IMG/VR virus record: IMGVR_UViG_3300025326_000073
Location: 1-45,439 of that record
Length of the DNA stretch: 45,439 nt
Source: a virus
Strand: one strand, 5' to 3'
Of this stretch, positions 8,780-39,443 are shown piece by piece. The translations under genes were made by a program, and so were the position numbers. Under the pieces are notes generated by a model. The model worked only from the letters and a program-made list of their open reading frames with translations. It was not told the origin of the DNA and did no database searches. Position 1 is the first letter of the stretch. Each line of letters starts with the position of its first letter.

Positions 8780-10185
8780 TGGCTGGCCTCTATAGTCACA
8801 CAACTCGCGCGACAGGCACAACCTTGACTGCGAGCATCTACAACACTGACCATCAAAACCACATTGACAATCAAACGCCGCAGATGACGGATGATTACTC
8901 GTCCAATGTGGCCCAGATGCAGTCCACTGTCAATCCAGGGGGTGTTGGCACAGAGTCCTTAGCTACCACGTTGGCCGGCGAAGTAGAACGCCTGCGATAC
9001 GTCATCAAGACGATGCACGGTGGCGCTCAATGGTATCCCGGTGCCGCGTTTGTTTCCGGCACGGCGTTTGACGCCAAGGGAGATTTACTTGCCGGCACAG
9101 CGGCAGATGCTTTCGCGGCGCTCACAGTAGGGGAAAATAACACAACATTGCTTGCTGCCTCCGATGAAACCTCTGGGCTTCGGTGGGGCGTTATAACGCC
9201 TCGCAACTATGTCATCAATGGCACCTTTGCGGTCAACCAAATCGTTACACCAACCACCACGGATAACAGTTACCCAATTGATGGTTGGAGACTACTACTT
9301 GGTGCAGCCAATGCCGCGACCTTTGAACAAGACACTGCGGATGTGCCCACTGGAGCTGGATACGCTGCCAAGTTGATCGTAGGCTCCGGCAACAATAACA
9401 AATTTGGGTTGTTCTGCCCAATTGAAAACAAGGATATGCTTTCGTTGCGGGGAAGCACCTGTGCGCTTCGTGTGGCCCTCAAGGCAACTGCCGGCCTCGT
9501 CGATGGCACCGGCAAAATTCGCATTGGCATTTTGGAATTCACGGGTTCCGCAGATGCCATTTCCGGCGATCCCATTTCAGCTTGGAATGCGGAGGGCACC
9601 AATCCAACGCTCGCAGCTAATTGGGCATTTGCCAATACGCCAGCGGCTATTGCGGTGACAACTGCATGGGTTAATTATTCCGTGACTGCGGTGTCTATTA
9701 GCGCCAGCGCTACCAATGTTGCGGTGTTGATCTGGTCAGATGATACCACCAATACTCAAACTACCGATATCTTGCGCATCGGAGGTTTTGTCACATTGAG
9801 TCGGGGCTCAGCCTATTCAGTAGCTCACATGGCTCCATTCGAGGAGGAATTGCGGCGCTGCCAACGTTACTTCTACAAGACATTCCCACAGGCGACGGCC
9901 CCTGCTCAGAATGCAGGACTTGACGGCGCAGGTTACGGCATTCGCGGGGATGCTGATGGGCGCATTCAAATCTGGTATCCGGTCACGATGCGCGTCGCTC
10001 CAACCGTTACGCTTTACAATCCAAGCAATACCAACGCACTCGCGCGCAATGTCAGCACGCCAGGGGATTTTTCCACTTCTAGCGCAGTCAGTCCATTGGG
10101 CGATAATGGAGTGTGCGTGCTATTTACCGGTGGCGCAACAGGAGATGCCGGCGCTATTCATATCTCAGCGGATGCCCGACTATGA
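8779..10185 (+). CDS. Tail fibre/receptor-binding protein, 468 aa
   Basis: The N-terminus (residues 1-85) carries the YSHTTRATGTTLTASIYN and HQNHIDNQTPQMTDDYS pattern common to phage fibre anchors, and a collagen-like or coiled region is absent. The middle (about 135-350) is a jelly-roll-like carbohydrate-binding domain (GTFAVNQ, YPIDGWRLLLG). The C-terminal module starts at EEELRRCQRYFYKTF, a conserved sequence at the base of many fibre tips. It probably binds the host surface. The stop overlaps the start of the next gene (ATGA). Confidence 0.82.
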   Translation: MAGLYSHTTRATGTTLTASIYNTDHQNHIDNQTPQMTDDYSSNVAQMQSTVNPGGVGTESLATTLAGEVERLRYVIKTMHGGAQWYPGAAFVSGTAFDAKGDLLAGTAADAFAALTVGENNTTLLAASDETSGLRWGVITPRNYVINGTFAVNQIVTPTTTDNSYPIDGWRLLLGAANAATFEQDTADVPTGAGYAAKLIVGSGNNNKFGLFCPIENKDMLSLRGSTCALRVALKATAGLVDGTGKIRIGILEFTGSADAISGDPISAWNAEGTNPTLAANWAFANTPAAIAVTTAWVNYSVTAVSISASATNVAVLIWSDDTTNTQTTDILRIGGFVTLSRGSAYSVAHMAPFEEELRRCQRYFYKTFPQATAPAQNAGLDGAGYGIRGDADGRIQIWYPVTMRVAPTVTLYNPSNTNALARNVSTPGDFSTSSAVSPLGDNGVCVLFTGGATGDAGAIHISADARL

Positions 10186-11734: not shown

Positions 11735-12514
11735 ATGGGTGGTGGTGGCGGAGTAACTGTTCCAGGGCCGAGCCCCGAAGAACGAGCATTACAAGCAGAG
11801 CAAGCATCGCTTTTGCGTGAGCAGCGTGATATGCTGTCTCGGCAGATCAGGGAAACCAATCTTCTCGCCCCCATGCTGTTCGAGCAGGCGGGCCTACGCG
11901 CCGTGCGAGATGCCAATGGAGAGATCACCAGCCTCGAACGCATGCCGCTTGAGGAAATGTCTCCTGAGACCCGCCAGGCCGCGGAAATCCAAGACCTGTT
12001 CAGCAAACGCTCGCTTGCCGCCCTCAAGGGTGAGCTTCCCGTCGATCCTGGTCTCCTACGTCGTTTAAACGAGGAAGAAACCACCCTCGGCGAAGCCCTT
12101 CGCAAGGAAATGGGCACAGGCTGGCGCACGTCGTCTCCCGGTATCCAAGCCACCGAAGAGTTCGCTCGCCGTAAATCCGACATCCTAGAAAGTGCTCGCC
12201 GGGGCGATCTAACCCTTGCGGAGCAACTTGGCCAGGCCCGTGAAGCCTCTATTCTCGCTCGGCCGTTCAGCGAGATTGGGGCGACACTGGCTCCATCCCA
12301 ACGATTCGCCAATCCATTCGCCAATGCCTCTGCGACTGGGGCGGGCTATTCTAGCGCTCTATCCCAATACGCCCAGGACCGCAACATGCAGTTGCAGGCG
12401 GCTATCGCCAATTCACAAGCACGGTCATCCAGTGCGGCCGGGTTTGGTAAGTTTGCCGGCGCAGCCCTTGGATCAGTATTCGGTGGTCCGGTCAAACCTT
12501 GGATTTTTGGGTAA
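11735..12514 (+). CDS. Putative internal virion/DNA-ejection protein, 259 aa
   Basis: The protein starts with a Gly run (MGGGGGVTVPGPSPEE), then long charged amphipathic helices (residues 20-180) and ends with an Ala/Gly/Ser-rich, weakly hydrophobic tail (FGKFAGAALGSVFGG). This plan is common in the smallest of the three ejection proteins of podoviruses. Its place directly before two larger helical proteins at the end of the late operon supports this. Sequence-level homology cannot be judged here. Confidence 0.65.
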   Translation: MGGGGGVTVPGPSPEERALQAEQASLLREQRDMLSRQIRETNLLAPMLFEQAGLRAVRDANGEITSLERMPLEEMSPETRQAAEIQDLFSKRSLAALKGELPVDPGLLRRLNEEETTLGEALRKEMGTGWRTSSPGIQATEEFARRKSDILESARRGDLTLAEQLGQAREASILARPFSEIGATLAPSQRFANPFANASATGAGYSSALSQYAQDRNMQLQAAIANSQARSSSAAGFGKFAGAALGSVFGGPVKPWIFG

Positions 12515-21255: not shown

Positions 21256-21437
21256 AGGAATATGACCCAAGTCCATCCTATAAGACTAACCATTCCAATA
21301 ATTACACCCAATAAGATCAGCCCTTTGCCAACATCTTCCATATCCCCCATGCCTAAGGCATCCCCTAATGTTGCGATTAGCAAACCCCCAATAAACAAAG
21401 TGGCAGAAGTAATCCCACCAGAAACTAATATAGACAT
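21252..21437 (-). CDS. Small two-helix membrane protein, 61 aa
   Basis: Two hydrophobic helices (ITSATLFIGGLLIATLGDAL and GLILLGVIIGMVSLIGWTWV) joined by an acidic turn (GMGDMEDVGK). The 5' end overlaps the upstream gene by 13 bases; the 3' end overlaps the tiny gene downstream. A hairpin-like inner-membrane protein; function unknown. Confidence 0.65.
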   Translation of the reverse strand: MSILVSGGITSATLFIGGLLIATLGDALGMGDMEDVGKGLILLGVIIGMVSLIGWTWVIFL

Positions 21438-21895
21438 TTCTTCAACTCCTCTGGTTTGTCATCCACTCCACACAGGGGATGGTTCTCCAAAAACACATTG
21501 TGTCCCACCTTGAGGGGTCCGAGTGGGGGATACAACCGCGCCAACTTGCGGATGCTCTGCACCAAGGGTTTATGGTAGGAGCCCTGCGCCACTCGCACCA
21601 TCTCCGGCGTCACCCAGGGGCATACATGCACCCGGCGCTGGCAGATCGCCCGGTTGAATACCATCAACCAAGTGGGCACGCCGTAGCGCAGCGCATCAGA
21701 GAGGGGTTTGTTACGGGCAGTGCCGTCCACTATTGTCACAGGGTGGCCACGGAGTAGTTCAATGACCACGCGGTAGGACATGGCGTCGATGCGGAAGTAT
21801 CCGTCCGCGGCATGGTGCCCGTGGCAGGATTGAAACATGCACACGTCGTCGTGGGGGAAGGCGAGGCCGTTACGGATGTTGGCTAGGCGCAGCAT
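21425..21895 (-). CDS. Hypothetical protein between exonuclease and polymerase, 156 aa
   Basis: ATG 21895 is chosen; a TTG two codons upstream is possible. The protein has a His/Cys-rich stretch (FQSCHGHHAADGYFRID), then a Rossmann- or nuclease-like core (YRVVIELLRGHPVTIVDGTA) and a basic C-terminal part. His and Cys residues could bind metal, but no family is recognised. Its position between two halves of the replicase suggests a replication-linked role. Confidence 0.65.
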   Translation of the reverse strand: MLRLANIRNGLAFPHDDVCMFQSCHGHHAADGYFRIDAMSYRVVIELLRGHPVTIVDGTARNKPLSDALRYGVPTWLMVFNRAICQRRVHVCPWVTPEMVRVAQGSYHKPLVQSIRKLARLYPPLGPLKVGHNVFLENHPLCGVDDKPEELKKCLY

Positions 21896-21913
21896 TGTCA
21901 ACTTTTGTAACTT

Positions 21914-31221: not shown

Positions 31222-31486
31222 AATTGTTCGGACTCTGTGGTTAGAGAATAGTTCCCAATTTCTCGAATTTCTTACGTTTCTTCTATTCCAGCCTCTGGAT
31301 GTCCCCCACTTAGCGTGGGAGGCATGCACCAAAATAGTGCAGGTGTCGAAATTTCGACAGGGGGGAGGGGTGTGTTTTTTGTCGATCTAAAATATATTTA
31401 TTAATAATCATACACTTACAAAATACCCTTCTCTCAAATTCTCGAAACATACATCCAGAGGTCAGAATAGGAGAAACCCAAGAAAT
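31222..31486 (-). promoter_or_regulatory. AT-rich intergenic control region with palindrome and hairpins
   Basis: This 265-bp stretch holds no gene. Read on the minus strand it has an AT-rich zone (31385-31440), a pyrimidine run, the 16-bp palindrome at 31344-31359, a hairpin (TGCAC 31325-31329 with GTGCA 31337-31341) and another (CCCAC 31305-31309 with GTGGG 31315-31319), then the start of the 30916-31221 gene. It looks like an internal promoter and operator with a structured leader. No exact promoter can be fixed. Confidence 0.55.
31344..31359. promoter_or_regulatory. Perfect 16-bp palindrome TGTCGAAATTTCGACA (putative operator)
   Basis: A fully symmetric 16-mer, intergenic in the early block. 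Close matches occur at 36411-36426 and in five copies at 36808-36908. This suggests a site for a dimeric regulator, plausibly the HTH protein encoded at 36469-37077. Confidence 0.65.
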
Positions 31487-31932: not shown

Positions 31933-32143
31933 GATGTTGCTCCTTGAAAATTGCCGCTTCCAAAATGGAATTGGCGGATACCCCGTTAATGCGGTAGCGC
32001 CCATACAAGACAACCCGCAATGCGGATAGTTCGGCGCGATGTTCGGCCGGCGGAAATAGTCCAGCATCGTGCAATAGCTGTAAGATTTCAGTCCGGGTCA
32101 AACCCTGAATGGCCCTGCGTATCAACTCTGCTTCGGTTTTCAT
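31925..32143 (-). CDS. Hypothetical protein, 72 aa
   Basis: ATG 32143 overlaps the upstream stop (ATGA). Helical (MKTEAELIRRAIQGLTRTEI, then ILQLLHDAGLFPPAEHRAEL). The spacing of hydrophobic residues is compatible with a small HTH-like fold, but no clear motif is seen. Confidence 0.6.
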   Translation of the reverse strand: MKTEAELIRRAIQGLTRTEILQLLHDAGLFPPAEHRAELSALRVVLYGRYRINGVSANSILEAAIFKEQHHA

Positions 32144-32793
32144 AGGAAACTCTCGAAACACTCATGGACTAATTGCGTGAATTCATTTTTAGCCGCATCG
32201 TGAGCCGCAGCATAAGCCGCATCGCGAGCTGCTACGCGAGTCGCAGCGCGAGCCGCAGCATAAGCCACAGCGCGAGCTGCTGCATAAGCCGCAGCGCGAG
32301 CCGCAGCATAAGCCACATCGTGAGTCGCAGCGCGAGCCGTAGCGTAAGCCGCAGCGCGAGCCGCATCGTGAGCTGCTGCGCGAGTCGCAGCGTAAACCGC
32401 AGCATAAGCCGCAGCGTAAGCCGCAGGATCGCCAGTCATCAGCCAGTCGAGTATTATCTGATCTGGTTCATACTTCCATTGGGCGAGGCAGGAAACCGCC
32501 TGCATCCGCGCGAAATACCGAAGCATTTCTGTTGCATCCATGCGCACGATGATTTTGCGTTTGCGGCACAGCAATTTATCCGCCTCTTCCTCGACGATAT
32601 CGGCGATCTCAACGAGGCAAAGAGTATCGCCCGGCGCGTATTGCAGTGCGTCGAACGGATTGCGGCTCGCGTGCAGGCCAGACTCGCACATTTTGCACGG
32701 CCCGGAATAGGCAAGCCATTCGCCGTCAGCGGGAATAGGCGAGCCATCACGTAGTATTACGCCTACAAAATGCCATGCTAGATTGGTTTTCAT
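32140..32793 (-). CDS. DUF7666-like protein with Ala-rich tetrapeptide repeats, 217 aa
   Basis: The N-terminal 120 residues contain CKMCESGLHASRNPFDALQY and TLCLVEIAD, a pattern of a phage domain that detects small 'GLHAS...P.DALQY' sequences (DUF7666-like). The C-terminal 85 residues are about 20 copies of [Y/R/H]AAA, encoded by a 12-bp tandem repeat (32191-32426). The repeat would form a long Ala helix with Tyr/Arg/His on every fourth position. Copy number could vary between phages. Function unknown. Confidence 0.7.
   Translation of the reverse strand: MKTNLAWHFVGVILRDGSPIPADGEWLAYSGPCKMCESGLHASRNPFDALQYAPGDTLCLVEIADIVEEEADKLLCRKRKIIVRMDATEMLRYFARMQAVSCLAQWKYEPDQIILDWLMTGDPAAYAAAYAAVYAATRAAAHDAARAAAYATARAATHDVAYAAARAAAYAAARAVAYAAARAATRVAARDAAYAAAHDAAKNEFTQLVHECFESFL
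32191..32426. repeat. 12-bp tandem repeat, about 20 units, coding
   Basis: Units are variants of AGCCGCAGCATA / AGCCGCAGCGCG on the + strand and each encodes four amino acids on the - strand. The units differ mainly in the last bases, which set the Tyr, Arg or His. No spacers, so this is not a CRISPR. Confidence 0.9.
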
Positions 32794-35092: not shown

Positions 35093-35367
35093 GCTGATTC
35101 TCCGCGCAAAAATGCCGCTACTGCAAAATGGGCGCGGAAGACTTCCACAGGGTCAAGCCCCGTTGCACTTCCGCCCCGTTGACGTTGCGCATGCGCGCGT
35201 AGCCTTGCCACCTTGACGCCGGACTCATCCCGACTAAACTTGACAAGGCCCCGTCTTTTGAGATTGTGCAATGGGCGCGCGGTATCTGGGGTAACAGTCA
35301 TTTCACCGCCCAAGGCGCGCAACGCCTGTAACACGTCCCGCTGGGGGTCTGTCCATCGTTTAAACAC
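35089..35367 (-). CDS. Winged-helix-like small protein with GTG start, 92 aa
   Basis: GTG 35367 follows AGGTG and overlaps the end of the SprT-like gene by eight bases; upstream ATGs would give a 100-bp overlap. The segment PQRDVLQALRALGGEMTV, then ARPLHNLKRRGLVKFSRDES, has the plan of a winged helix (MarR-like). It may be an early transcription factor or anti-host DNA-binding protein. Assignment is by pattern. Confidence 0.55.
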   Translation of the reverse strand: MFKRWTDPQRDVLQALRALGGEMTVTPDTARPLHNLKRRGLVKFSRDESGVKVARLRAHAQRQRGGSATGLDPVEVFRAHFAVAAFLRGESA

Positions 35368-36058
35368 TGGGCACCTTGATTGCGGGTAGAACCACCAACC
35401 CGCTGGAGGGATCACGCGGCTTTGATTCTTCCTGCGTGAATGCTTGGTTACATTCATCGCAATGCGCGTGAAAACCATCCGATGCGACCCGCACCTTAAC
35501 CGGAGGATTGCACTTGCACTCCCAAAGGCGCAAACGCGAACCCGAGCCCGTGCCGCGTGACTTTCCGCCCTTGACACCTACGCCGGCATGGCACCCACCT
35601 TTTCCGCCAGTGAACTTACTGCTAGCGGCTTGGGGTATGCCGTCTGTCGGCTTTTCCAGGGCGTTGATTAGTGCCCATGCGTCGGCGTCAAAAGACTCTG
35701 GCAAGTAGGCATGCCCTACAGCTTTTGCGTTCAGCAATCCGAGTGATTCGCAGGCCAGCTTCCATTCTTTGTTGTGCCCGCAACCACGGCCGGCGAGAAC
35801 ATGGCCGAGTTCATGCAGGGTAGTCCCTGCCAGCTGCACCGGGTTTTCTTCTCCGAGCGCGCACACTTCCGCTAGTGCGTGGCAGCTATCCACCACTTTC
35901 CAGCTATCGAACATCGTTACGCCGCGCCGACCGCGCGCGCCATCCCCCGATCCGTAGATCAGCTTCGCGCCTGCGATCTTGGCGCGGAATTCTGCATCGC
36001 CAATGCGCGCGGCAGCAATGGCGCGCACTGCGTTGATGTATTCCTCGTGCGTGCACAT
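35360..36058 (-). CDS. SprT-like zinc metalloprotein with C-terminal zinc ribbon, 232 aa
   Basis: TTLHELGHVLAGRGCGHNKEW gives the zinc site H82, E83, H86 and H95, as in SprT/Spartan-type peptidases. The C-terminal part has WECKC and HCDEC, a zinc ribbon. Between lies a Gly-rich, basic linker. It is the first gene of the early block and its ATG follows GGGAG, so it is likely expressed strongly and early. Eukaryotic relatives cleave proteins cross-linked to DNA. Phage roles are unknown; protein removal from DNA or attack on a host regulator is possible. Confidence 0.8.
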   Translation of the reverse strand: MCTHEEYINAVRAIAAARIGDAEFRAKIAGAKLIYGSGDGARGRRGVTMFDSWKVVDSCHALAEVCALGEENPVQLAGTTLHELGHVLAGRGCGHNKEWKLACESLGLLNAKAVGHAYLPESFDADAWALINALEKPTDGIPQAASSKFTGGKGGCHAGVGVKGGKSRGTGSGSRLRLWECKCNPPVKVRVASDGFHAHCDECNQAFTQEESKPRDPSSGLVVLPAIKVPSV

Positions 36059-36259
36059 CAGACTATCTCCCAGTTTTGGCTAGTGTGCGTGATCATGCTC
36101 TACTCTAAGCGAGAATCATGCCAGCCCCCCGCGCTTGCGCGGTAGAGCCATTCCGCCATGTTTTCAAGGAGTTAGGTGCAGTGGCGAGATTCCGCCATTG
36201 CCGTAGTTATGCACAATCTGCCCCATTTGGGTGCGTCCGTGCCCATTTTTGGAATTCCC

Positions 36260-36289
36260 TTGCGCAATCAACGCACTGCGTGTTACAAT
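36260..36289 (+). promoter_or_regulatory. Possible sigma-70-like promoter for the + block
   Basis: TTGCGC (36260-36265) and TACAAT (36284-36289) are 18 bp apart. The -10 is good, the -35 only fair. It faces the HTH gene about 180 bp downstream. Confidence 0.4.
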
Positions 36290-36410
36290 TCGCCCCGCAT
36301 TGGTGCGCTCCCTGTCTGCCTGTCCGCCCCGACACATTATGTCAAATCGGAAATGCCGCGTAGGGTAGCTTCAGCGTGCCCGCGTCATTGCGTCTGGGGC
36401 CGTCCTATTG

Positions 36411-36426
36411 CGTCGAAATTTCGTCA
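36411..36426. promoter_or_regulatory. Operator-like near-palindrome upstream of the HTH gene
   Basis: CGTCGAAATTTCGTCA differs from the perfect palindrome at 31344 by two bases and lies about 45 bp before the HTH gene's start. It could serve autoregulation. Confidence 0.5.
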
Positions 36427-36468
36427 AAATGCACGTCAGAATGAACGAATTGCCGCTGACGTGGCCCA

Positions 36469-37077
36469 ATGGCCATGGAACAGGCGGAAAACAAGGTGCT
36501 GTGGCGAACTTGTCGGCAGATCGCCGCCGGACTCGGACTGTCGTCGACAACGACGTGGCGCATGCTTCGCCGCGGCGACCTACCCGCAATCCGCGCCGGC
36601 CGCGTTTGGTGCATCGTCCCCGCCAGCGTCGCGCCGTATGTTGTCGCCTTGGCACAGCGTGGGGTTGTCGTGCGCCCCGTCGCCGCGCCCACGCCGAAGT
36701 CCGTGTTTAAACGACATGCCTCGCCGCCGCCTGTCGATGTTGCGGCGCAACATGCCGCCGTCGCCGAAATGGTGCGGCGCAGCATGGGGGAGTTGGCACT
36801 CACTGACTGTCGAAATCTCGACATGTCGGAATCTCGTCATATTGCAGTGCAGCATGCCGAAATCTCGACAGTGTTGCGGAAATGCGACAGTGTGGCGGAA
36901 ACGCAACATGGTGCACCGCAGCACGTCCCAGTTTGCTGCGGTGCAGCAGACCCCCTGGGGGGTAGGGTGATGCATGCGGCTAGCTCCCCGCTCTTGGCCC
37001 TGCCCCCGACAAAAAAATACCCCCCAACTGTGCCGAACCCTCGGCCGGAAAGCGAGAGTGCGAATGGCGAAGAGTGA
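36469..37077 (+). CDS. Helix-turn-helix DNA-binding protein, 202 aa
   Basis: The N-terminal 65 residues (CRQIAAGLGLSSTTTWRMLR, then RGDLPAIRAGRVWCIVP) match the excisionase/MerR-like helix-turn-helix used by phage regulators and small terminases. The rest is low-complexity, rich in Pro, Ala and Val. The ATG at 36469 (or 36475) lacks a clear ribosome-binding site. The coding sequence contains five copies of a 16-bp operator-like element in all three frames (36808-36908), so this part of the gene is shaped by DNA-level function. It may be the early/late switch regulator. A small terminase subunit is an alternative because packaging genes follow. Confidence 0.68.
   Translation: MAMEQAENKVLWRTCRQIAAGLGLSSTTTWRMLRRGDLPAIRAGRVWCIVPASVAPYVVALAQRGVVVRPVAAPTPKSVFKRHASPPPVDVAAQHAAVAEMVRRSMGELALTDCRNLDMSESRHIAVQHAEISTVLRKCDSVAETQHGAPQHVPVCCGAADPLGGRVMHAASSPLLALPPTKKYPPTVPNPRPESESANGEE
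36808..36908. repeat. Five-copy array of 16-bp operator-like elements
   Basis: Copies start at 36808, 36824, 36855, 36874 and 36893: TGTCGAAATCTCGACA, TGTCGGAATCTCGTCA, TGCCGAAATCTCGACA, TTGCGGAAATGCGACA and TGGCGGAAACGCAACA. Spacing is 16, 31, 19 and 19 bp, so they fall in all three reading frames of the HTH gene and cannot be explained by protein repeats. They resemble iterons or multiple operators. Confidence 0.72.
36912..36945. repeat. Perfect 12-bp inverted repeat (hairpin) next to the operator array
   Basis: TGCACCGCAGCA (36912-36923) and TGCTGCGGTGCA (36934-36945) are exact inverted copies separated by ten bases. CCCCCTGGGGG follows. The hairpin directly borders the array, so it may be part of a replication origin, packaging site or regulatory RNA. 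Confidence 0.75.
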
Positions 37078-37483
37078 ACCCATTGCGACGGTGCGCGTCT
37101 ACCCAGCCGCGCGGAGCGACCTTTATGCAGAAGTGCGGGTGTGGCGGACACTACGGGACATGCGCCGGTATGCGGCCGGGCGGCCGGGGCGGTTGCGCTC
37201 AGCTTTGGGTCAATGTTGCGGGACGGAGGCGTATCGAGTGATACGCAAGCAGAGACGAAAAACCGGACAGTTTGCCACAGTGGATTTGGCTAAGAACTAC
37301 CTCGGGCCAAGGATAGTGGCGCATGAGATGACGCATGCGGCGCTCCGCTATCGGGACCGGGCAGGCTTCCAGTTGGACTTCACGCCGGACCGGAACTGCG
37401 GGGAGGAACGGCTGTGTTACGCAGTTGGGGATATGTGTAGTCAACTGTGGCGGAAGTTGCGCCGCCGTGGGGTGTGTGATTGA
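37064..37483 (+). CDS. HExxH putative zinc peptidase, 139 aa
   Basis: ATG 37064 overlaps the end of the HTH gene. RIVAHEMTHAALRYR (H87, E88, H91) is a zinc-binding motif, and EERLCYAVGDM may give the third ligand. The N-terminus is basic. It is the third HExxH protein of the phage and the only one in the + block, directly before the packaging genes. Function unknown; TGATG overlap joins it to the next gene. Confidence 0.7.
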   Translation: MAKSEPIATVRVYPAARSDLYAEVRVWRTLRDMRRYAAGRPGRLRSALGQCCGTEAYRVIRKQRRKTGQFATVDLAKNYLGPRIVAHEMTHAALRYRDRAGFQLDFTPDRNCGEERLCYAVGDMCSQLWRKLRRRGVCD

Positions 37484-37944
37484 TGGACGAAATCGACCCG
37501 GCAATCCGCGCTGCCGCCCTTGCGGACACCTTCAAGGCCCTGTCCCGCATGGACCGGGTGCCATTCCGCAAAGTGCTGGCGGATCTACTGGAATGCGCCC
37601 CCACGCCTGAAAACATCCGGGCGTTGGCTGAAAAGTCCCCGGATCGGTGGGCGCAGGCGCTTAGCATTGTGGCGGGGTTGGCGGGATTCGATCGTGGCAT
37701 CGGCCCAACCATCAACCTCTACAACGTGGGGAATATGAGTGATGCTCAGTTGATGGAGCGCCTCTCGGAGCTTGACCGGCAACGAGCCCTGCCGTCCGAA
37801 AAACCCATCGAATTTCTGACAGAAGCGCCGCAGTTATCGGCCGCTGTAAACGTCGACACATCCGATCAAGTGCCGACACCTGCTGTTCAGGAATCCCCAG
37901 TGTCCACGAATCGTGAACAAGGCGCGGGGGTGAACGACACATGA
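37483..37944 (+). CDS. Putative small terminase subunit/packaging protein, 153 aa
   Basis: ATG 37483 overlaps the upstream stop. It is directly upstream of the large terminase and overlaps it by four bases (ATGA). The N-terminal half is helical (ALADTFKALSRMDRVPFRKV, PDRWAQALSIVAGLAGFDRG); NVGNMSDAQLMERLSEL resembles the C-terminal part of small terminase-like phage proteins. The C-terminal tail is Pro/Thr-rich. Assignment comes mainly from position. Confidence 0.6.
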   Translation: MDEIDPAIRAAALADTFKALSRMDRVPFRKVLADLLECAPTPENIRALAEKSPDRWAQALSIVAGLAGFDRGIGPTINLYNVGNMSDAQLMERLSELDRQRALPSEKPIEFLTEAPQLSAAVNVDTSDQVPTPAVQESPVSTNREQGAGVNDT

Positions 37945-39443
37945 CCCGCGACGAACTTGAACAGGCTGTCATCCTCAGGGAAGAGTTGGCAAACAGGCGC
38001 ACAACCGACCCATGGTTTCAATGGGAGCCTAAACCGCGGCAGCGTCCGTTTGTCGAAGCTGTGCTAACGCGGCAAGTATCTGAGGTTTGGTTCATCGCGG
38101 CCAACCGTTCCGGAAAGTCCGATGCCGCCGCTTATATTGGGTCGGCCCTGGCGCGGTTCGGTCGCACACCCCCGAAGTGGGGTTACGGGGGGCAAGATGC
38201 CAAACCAACGCGAGGTTGGGTAATTTCGGCCTCGACTACCGCGAGCCGGGATGTCATCCAACCCAAGTTCTTCGACAATGGCATGGCCGCGGCGGAGAAT
38301 CATGCTCCCTTCATTCCGCAGCGCGAACTTGCAAGTTCCTTCAACATCAACGAGCAAACTCTAAAGCTCAAAAACGGTAGCATCATTGAGTTTAAAACTG
38401 CCGAGGCCAAGGTGTTGACGTTTGCCGGGGGTGGTATTGACTGGGTGCTGATTGACGAGGAGTGTCCCAAGCCCCTCTACGATGAATTGGTAATTCGAGT
38501 GAGTGGTGGTCGTCGCTTGTTGGTTATCGGAGCCTGCACTTTGCTGCCGCCGGAAGGTCAGGTTGGCGGGGTATCGTGGATATTCCCCGAAAAGATCAAA
38601 CCTTGGCTTGCCAACCCGAGGGGGGTGGATTTTGAAATCTATGGGTCATCCATCTATGACAACGATTCCATTCTGCCAAGTGAAATTGCTCGTTTGGAAG
38701 CCCGCTACCCTGTAGGCAGTCCTGAACGAGCCATTCGTCTCGACGGTGCATATCTGCCGGGGATGCAAGGCGCGCGGGCGTATCCATCGTTTGATGCTCG
38801 CATCCATGTTAAACCCCAAGAACCCCCGGAGCCACGCCGGCCGATTTGTTGGATTTGGGACTTCAACGTGGAGCCCATGATCAGTCTCATTGGGCAACGT
38901 CGAGATCATGTGTTCCACATTTGGAGGGAATTGGTGCTGGACGAGGGGGACCTCGACCGGATGGTGCAGTATTTTGCCGAAGCTGTTCCAGGGCATGCTG
39001 CCGAAATTTGGGTCTATGGGGATGCGACGGGGCGTAACCGCCATGCTGCCGCGCCGGGAGGTCGCAGTGAATACCAGATCATTTCCAACGCCATGCGAAC
39101 CTATGGCTGTCCAATGCGTCTAAAGGTTGCAGAGGTCAATCCTTTGGTGACTGATCGCATCAACGCTGTAAATAGGGCATTTAGGGACGAAGAAGGAGTA
39201 GCCAGAGTTGAGATTGACCCATCCTGCACGGAGTTGATTGAGGACTTCGAGCAGGTATTACGGGACAACAAGGGCGGCATCAAAAAGACCCGTAATCGAA
39301 AAGACCCTTACTTTCGGCGCACACACACATCAGATGCTTTCGGCTACTGGATAGCTTATGAAGAGCCGGTTCGATCTACTACAATCGGACAGAAGTTGAT
39401 TGCTGCTATCAGGAATCCAGGCTATGCCTTTGGCCGAAAGTAA
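37941..39443 (+). CDS. terL: Terminase large subunit (ATPase and nuclease), 500 aa
   Basis: The ATPase domain has Walker A FIAANRSGKSDAAAYIG (K59, S60) and Walker B IDWVLIDEECP (D172, E173). The RNase H-like nuclease has conserved acids in ICWIWDFNVEP (D307), WVYGDATGRNRHAA (D361) and RRTHTSDAFGYWI (D464). It cuts concatemeric DNA and drives it into the prohead through the portal. Length is typical. Whether packaging is headful or site-specific cannot be decided, but the circular map suits headful packaging. Confidence 0.95.
   Translation: MTRDELEQAVILREELANRRTTDPWFQWEPKPRQRPFVEAVLTRQVSEVWFIAANRSGKSDAAAYIGSALARFGRTPPKWGYGGQDAKPTRGWVISASTTASRDVIQPKFFDNGMAAAENHAPFIPQRELASSFNINEQTLKLKNGSIIEFKTAEAKVLTFAGGGIDWVLIDEECPKPLYDELVIRVSGGRRLLVIGACTLLPPEGQVGGVSWIFPEKIKPWLANPRGVDFEIYGSSIYDNDSILPSEIARLEARYPVGSPERAIRLDGAYLPGMQGARAYPSFDARIHVKPQEPPEPRRPICWIWDFNVEPMISLIGQRRDHVFHIWRELVLDEGDLDRMVQYFAEAVPGHAAEIWVYGDATGRNRHAAAPGGRSEYQIISNAMRTYGCPMRLKVAEVNPLVTDRINAVNRAFRDEEGVARVEIDPSCTELIEDFEQVLRDNKGGIKKTRNRKDPYFRRTHTSDAFGYWIAYEEPVRSTTIGQKLIAAIRNPGYAFGRK

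Follow-up and report, generated by a model that had tools for sequence, protein, structure and literature searches.

What is the function of a 16-bp palindrome (TGTCG-N6-CGACA) that stands among the early genes of a viral genome, again just in front of a gene for a putative DNA-binding protein, and then repeatedly inside the coding sequence of that gene? The window analysed here is the whole 45,439-nucleotide IMG/VR record IMGVR_UViG_3300025326_000073, and because its ends overlap exactly over 126 bp we treat its map as a circle of about 45.3 kb. An early/replication block that includes a split DNA polymerase, a primase, a Sak4-like protein and an exonuclease (at 16-30 kb) runs leftward, and a packaging/structural block runs rightward from the helix-turn-helix (HTH) ORF 36469-37077 through the large terminase, an SU10-like portal (39581) and the major capsid protein (43111). 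The gap between the two blocks (Table 1), which we have taken as the divergent control region, is bounded by genes that we judge to be real, because ORFs of greater length that arise by chance extend into it; none of its sigma-70 promoter matches stands above those of shuffled sequence. Proteins with metallopeptidase-like motifs (HELGH, HEMTH) are encoded on both sides of this region, by 35360-36058 (- strand), which heads the early block, and by 37064-37483 (+ strand), the second gene of the rightward block. Two other features of the early side are that a 158-amino-acid ORF within the split DNA polymerase region (21425-21901, - strand) matches the Pfam Rit1 domain above its cut-off (E 2e-8), which is unusual in a phage, and that ORF 32140-32793 contains a strong tandem repeat (32143-32442) encoding Ala/Tyr/Arg-rich sequence of the AAYAAARAA type.

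A pattern search found the palindromes where the first-pass annotation of this DNA had placed them, at 31344, at 36411 and at five positions within ORF 36469-37077. When up to three mismatches are allowed the window holds 12 matches where 1.28 are expected, and none of 100 shuffles reaches 12. The in-gene array, which spans 36808-36908, consists of three good and two degenerate copies. When the degenerate copies at 36874 and 36893 are dropped from the scoring matrix, 5 and 11 non-member positions, respectively, score equally high, and these two sites are credible because they are placed within the array at 19-bp steps. The annotation had proposed a scan of the genome with a matrix made from its seven sites; in the scan that we ran the top non-member is 36182, a palindrome absent from the earlier list, and its position, also within the divergent gap, counts in favor of an operator. 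We regard 36182 as a good site that is not conclusive alone, a score as high as its own being seen in 6 of 200 simulated genomes. Dyad copies beyond chance are present in the control gaps at 31344, 36182 and 36411.

Table 1. Positions of the palindromes, the second motif and neighboring features in the window
Feature	Position	Strand	Remarks
Perfect 16-bp palindrome TGTCGAAATTTCGACA	31344-31359		single copy, early-block gap; 25.8 bits, best in genome
A+T-rich tract, 18% GC	31374-31423		14 bp from the 31344 palindrome, after a GGGGGGAGGGG run; 50-bp windows
Divergent gap, 410 bp	36059-36468		between leftward early block (last start 36058) and rightward late block
Additional palindrome TGGCGAGATTCCGCCA	36182-36197		divergent gap; 18.5 bits
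Near copy of palindrome CGTCGAAATTTCGTCA, 2 mismatches	36411-36426		42 bp 5' of ATG 36469
HTH_17/excisionase-like ORF	36469-37077	+	first gene of rightward block; PF12728, TIGR01764 and phrog_66 matches
Second motif TGCNNNGCARCA	36741, 36773, 36843, 36912, 36937	+	within 36738-36948
Second motif TGCNNNGCARCA	36738, 36934	-	within 36738-36948
In-gene array site 1, TGTCGAAATCTCGACA	36808-36823		pattern search and matrix
In-gene array site 2, TGTCGGAATCTCGTCA	36824-36839		TGCAGTGCAGCA at 36843, exactly 3 bp after
In-gene array site 3, TGCCGAAATCTCGACA	36855-36870		pattern search and matrix
In-gene array site 4, TTGCGGAAATGCGACA, degenerate	36874-36889		weak alone; 19-bp phasing
In-gene array site 5, TGGCGGAAACGCAACA, degenerate	36893-36908		TGCACCGCAGCA at 36912, exactly 3 bp after
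Large terminase subunit	37941-39443	+	phrog_2, E 1.8e-14; packaging module starts about 1 kb past array

Could the in-gene copies simply reflect the protein that they encode? As the annotation had pointed out, they fall in all three reading frames (0, 1, 2, 0 and 1 relative to 36469), and the peptides encoded are therefore unrelated. Seven 16-mers in ORF 36469-37077 retain at least 8 of the 10 conserved arm bases. Synonymous recoding of the ORF leaves 1.95 such sites on average and never more than 6, shuffling of its codon order leaves 0.48 on average and never more than 4, and seven sites are reached in 0 of 5000 trials by either procedure. GC3 is 0.50 in the array codons, compared with 0.72-0.77 upstream in the same ORF. 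Since the number of sites exceeds that of all protein-preserving recodings, and since GC3 drops alongside, the constraint on the array acts at the level of the DNA, and the earlier dismissal of protein-level selection as the cause of the copies holds.

The gene that surrounds the array encodes a protein with an HTH_17/excisionase-like N-terminus and a low-complexity C-terminal half. Its matches to PF12728 (Pfam; E 4e-5, 24.1 bits) and TIGR01764 (NCBIfam; E 3.5e-5, 24.1 bits) lie below the curated cut-offs of 27 and 28.8, respectively, and phrog_66 is matched with E 0.0018. We favor the ORF as a real coding sequence because the gene that follows probably starts (at 37064) within its 3' end; its own start is uncertain, and GTG 36496 has, by eye, the better Shine-Dalgarno sequence. 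A single-sequence AlphaFold2 model of the protein has a mean pLDDT of 45, too poor to judge an HTH-plus-wing fold. No relatives of the protein were found in phages (by tblastn) or in an IMG/VR scan, and scans of IMG/VR that used the HTH, terminase, 37480-37944 and portal proteins yielded between them one relative, a 4.9-kb fragment (L003; portal 70%) that stops short of the array region. Among the early and rightward ORFs of the window that we tested, no other putative regulator was recognised, which counts in favor of an operator. The protein is a possible reader of the palindromes, and might then regulate its own gene as the annotation suggested; linkage to the array alone makes it the first candidate.

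The explanation that we favor, giving it about an even chance, is that the palindromes form a multi-site operator for a regulator of the phage. A protein that binds DNA sequence-specifically, probably as a dimer, and that the phage itself probably encodes, would read the TGTCG-N6-CGACA palindromes at three places, namely the early-block gap (31344), the divergent gap (36182 and 36411) and the array in the first rightward gene. Occupancy of the gap sites would then control both early (leftward) and late (rightward) transcription, and the in-gene array, with its steps of about 16-31 bp, would function as an auxiliary operator that acts cooperatively and might serve as a roadblock, as a DNA-looping partner of the gap sites or as a titrating store (sink). 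We infer that the sites are occupied by a protein, and likewise which protein this may be and what its binding would bring about. In favor of an operator are a site number above that of every shuffle and every synonymous recoding and the drop of GC3 in the array, and the dyads in both gaps together with the phased cluster support the operator-like, multi-site layout that the first-pass annotation proposed, here one that joins early and late control gaps. The tandem repressor operators of temperate phages (lambda OR/OL type) are dyads of about 16 bp, present as two to five tandem copies about two helical turns apart near divergent promoters, and the window sites resemble them in dyad size, tandem number, spacing and closeness to the divergent control region. 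Unlike those operators, the main cluster of the window lies within coding sequence, a less usual location than that of promoter operators. No integrase or CI-type repressor was recognised among the window proteins searched.

Is the palindrome peculiar to this genome? A search for the double-site pattern found tandem copies (two to four) in eleven further IMG/VR contigs: four copies in L010, three each in L013, L041, L042, L052, L054 and L056, and two each in L051, L053, L055 and L022. L041 and L042 share their control region and L052 and L056 are near-identical; because these four and L054 look like one related group, we count about seven lineages. Two of the copies in L013 (G001) read TGTCGAAATCTCGACA, and the third is its reverse complement. 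The arrays in these contigs are mostly intergenic, often at divergent boundaries, and their steps of mostly 16-24 bp can be likened to those of tandem operators; this recurrence counts in favor of the operator explanation. The pair in L051 precedes a small gene whose product is, by eye, RHH-like. TATGCATA repeats (ATGCATAnACTTGG-like) lie beside the palindromes of L041 (9863-10010), L042 (12420-12590) and L054 (10400-10535). There is no such array in three phages whose relationship to the window is in the replication module (L005, L006 and L007), nor in MW202697 (L004), whose likeness to the window amounts essentially to one exonuclease and a tail-fibre piece; MW202697 carries two NtrC-box-like sites (35757 and 35798) and a sigma-54-like TGGCATACTCTTTGCT at 36031. 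The contigs L024-L038 were considered as possible transposon ends (multiple terminal repeats of the IS21/Tn7-like kind), an idea that we rejected since the flanking ORFs are, by eye, ordinary chromosomal genes and not transposases.

The search for a common reader counts against the operator interpretation. No convincing homologue of the window HTH_17 protein was found in the array-bearing contigs, and no shared regulator is detectable by blastp among the window, G001, L010, L041 and L042, which have only tail-fibre-like pieces in common (plus, between L041 and L042, ORFs of the control region). A gene upstream of the sites in L053 matches phrog_66 weakly, but we discarded it as support for a link to the HTH protein, since a second L053 protein does so too and phage OR754314, which has a homologue of the L053 HTH protein, has no sites in the surrounding 10 kb. 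Either different phages use different readers, or the host supplies the reader, or part of the agreement in motif has arisen by coincidence among many unrelated operators. Tandem palindromic operators exist in very many phages, so some of the cross-phage matches may be independent operators that agree by chance.

If a DNA-binding protein of the host, and not of the phage, read the palindromes, it would be explained why unrelated phages that share no regulator have this motif in common, and the limitation of the common sequences to tail-fibre-like pieces fits this. Host input is also thinkable at 31344, where TGCACCAAAATAGTGCA (31325-31341), which is one base off the E. coli NtrC box TGCACCAnnnTGGTGCA (PMC8743547), ends 2 bp ahead of the palindrome. 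In the open-access literature searched, however, we found no described regulator with this palindrome as its motif, and 85,000 species genomes of bacteria and archaea gave few double sites, most of them 8-bp microsatellites, which we set aside; this is unlike a widespread host regulon, and we think a host reader improbable.

Iterons offer a different explanation of sites inside a gene. The array might be a set of iterons within the gene of its own initiator, with 31344 and the neighboring A+T-rich tract as a second origin-like site. Ori-lambda has 19-bp inverted repeats inside gene O (PMC5043065), and SPP1 has oriL, with repeats within gene 38, and oriR as a second site (PMC6316719). The window gene has the same anatomy, a DNA-binding N-terminus with palindromic repeats in mid-gene; several dyad repeats of a size comparable to the 16-19 bp of lambda lie within the coding sequence of a putative DNA-binding protein gene (PMC5043065), and as in SPP1 there is a second locus elsewhere (PMC6316719). 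In addition, arrays occur near replication genes in other contigs (upstream of a primosomal-protein gene in L010 and directly 3' of a primase-like gene in L055), and the cumulative GC skew has its minimum at 36765, 43 bp from the array, and its maximum at 11855, away from the gene-direction switch at 16.06 kb. The skew minimum nevertheless also falls where the genes change direction, third-codon skew is unchanged at 12 kb, and we have set GC skew aside as proof of an origin since it is confounded with gene direction. Unlike lambda ori, the main array has no flanking A+T-rich unwinding tract (no 40-mer within 200 bp falls below 53-57% GC), and only 31344 has one; the HTH is excisionase-like, its gene heads the packaging/structural block and does not lie in the replication block, and additional copies stand in two control gaps. 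Unlike SPP1 oriL/oriR, the second locus is a single palindrome with a nearby A+T tract, and the gene is not followed by a helicase loader or replicative helicase, profile searches having recognised no helicase-loader gene downstream of the HTH ORF. We consider an origin rather unlikely.

The position of the array about 1 kb ahead of the large terminase gene raises a further question, whether it might be a packaging start (pac or cosB-like). The palindromes would then be recognised by a small terminase, which could be the HTH_17 protein (as a Nu1-like winged helix) or the 37480-37944 protein. Lambda, with cosB and the winged helix of Nu1, is a parallel in its excisionase-like HTH, a type that the N-terminus of the window protein also resembles. 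SPP1 offers a precedent, since its pac overlaps promoters, a ribosome binding site and the small-terminase gene (PMC6316719), and in the window, too, repeats that may serve for recognition lie within and near the first gene on the upstream side of the large terminase. In L010, L013 (G001), the L041 group and L022 (G003) the array is likewise placed on the terminase side and precedes the large terminase gene, which makes five lineages with the window, and the exact terminal overlap suits a circular map such as arises from packaging of a concatemer. Unlike SPP1 pac or lambda cosB, however, the window has further palindromes, a perfect one at 31344, at a distance of 5.5 kb, and two in the divergent gap, which is unexpected for a single packaging site, and the arrays of L051 and L055 are not next to a recognised terminase. 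The 37480-37944 protein is the better-placed small-terminase candidate, but no terminase family among the PHROG and NCBIfam profiles is matched by this protein or by the HTH protein. A packaging function seems distinctly unlikely to us.

For an operator read by a phage regulator it is also relevant what else the array contains. A second motif, TGCNNNGCARCA, which the first-pass annotation had missed, is interleaved with the palindromes; seven of its eight matches in the genome fall inside 36738-36948, the number expected genome-wide being about 1.7. Twice in the window the palindrome is followed by exactly 3 bp and then TGCNNNGCARCA (36824 to 36843 and 36893 to 36912), and the identical composite with the identical spacing occurs once in the unrelated viral contig L053 (palindrome at 9121, TGCACCGCAACA at 9140). 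This fixed spacing was spotted after the fact and has three instances in all. At the end of the array (36909-36948) lies a 15-bp inverted repeat (93%), TGGTGCACCGCAGCA / TGCTGCGGTGCAGCA, with a 10-nucleotide loop and without a T run. The window has just two instances of GACAAAAAA beside G/C runs, at 31360-31392 (- strand), adjoining the 31344 palindrome, and at 37004-37030 (+ strand), 3' of the in-gene array, and L022 has CGACAAAAA about 10 bp past its palindrome pair. Recurrence of the composite in L053 hints at recognition by two proteins. It is conceivable, if speculative, that TGTCG-N6-CGACA, 3 bp and TGCNNNGCARCA make up a portable control cassette of unrelated phages that would be read by two proteins jointly, could be embedded in coding sequence regardless of frame and would act as an early/late (or replication/packaging) switch.

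Operator and iteron arrays, including arrays inside phage genes, are already known. We found no operator with this palindrome sequence in the open-access literature, in agreement with what the annotation had stated, and as far as that literature was searched the motif is undescribed. What is new is a defined cis motif for a phage group that has almost no database relatives, and with it control of the early/late switch would be narrowed to a few short sites.
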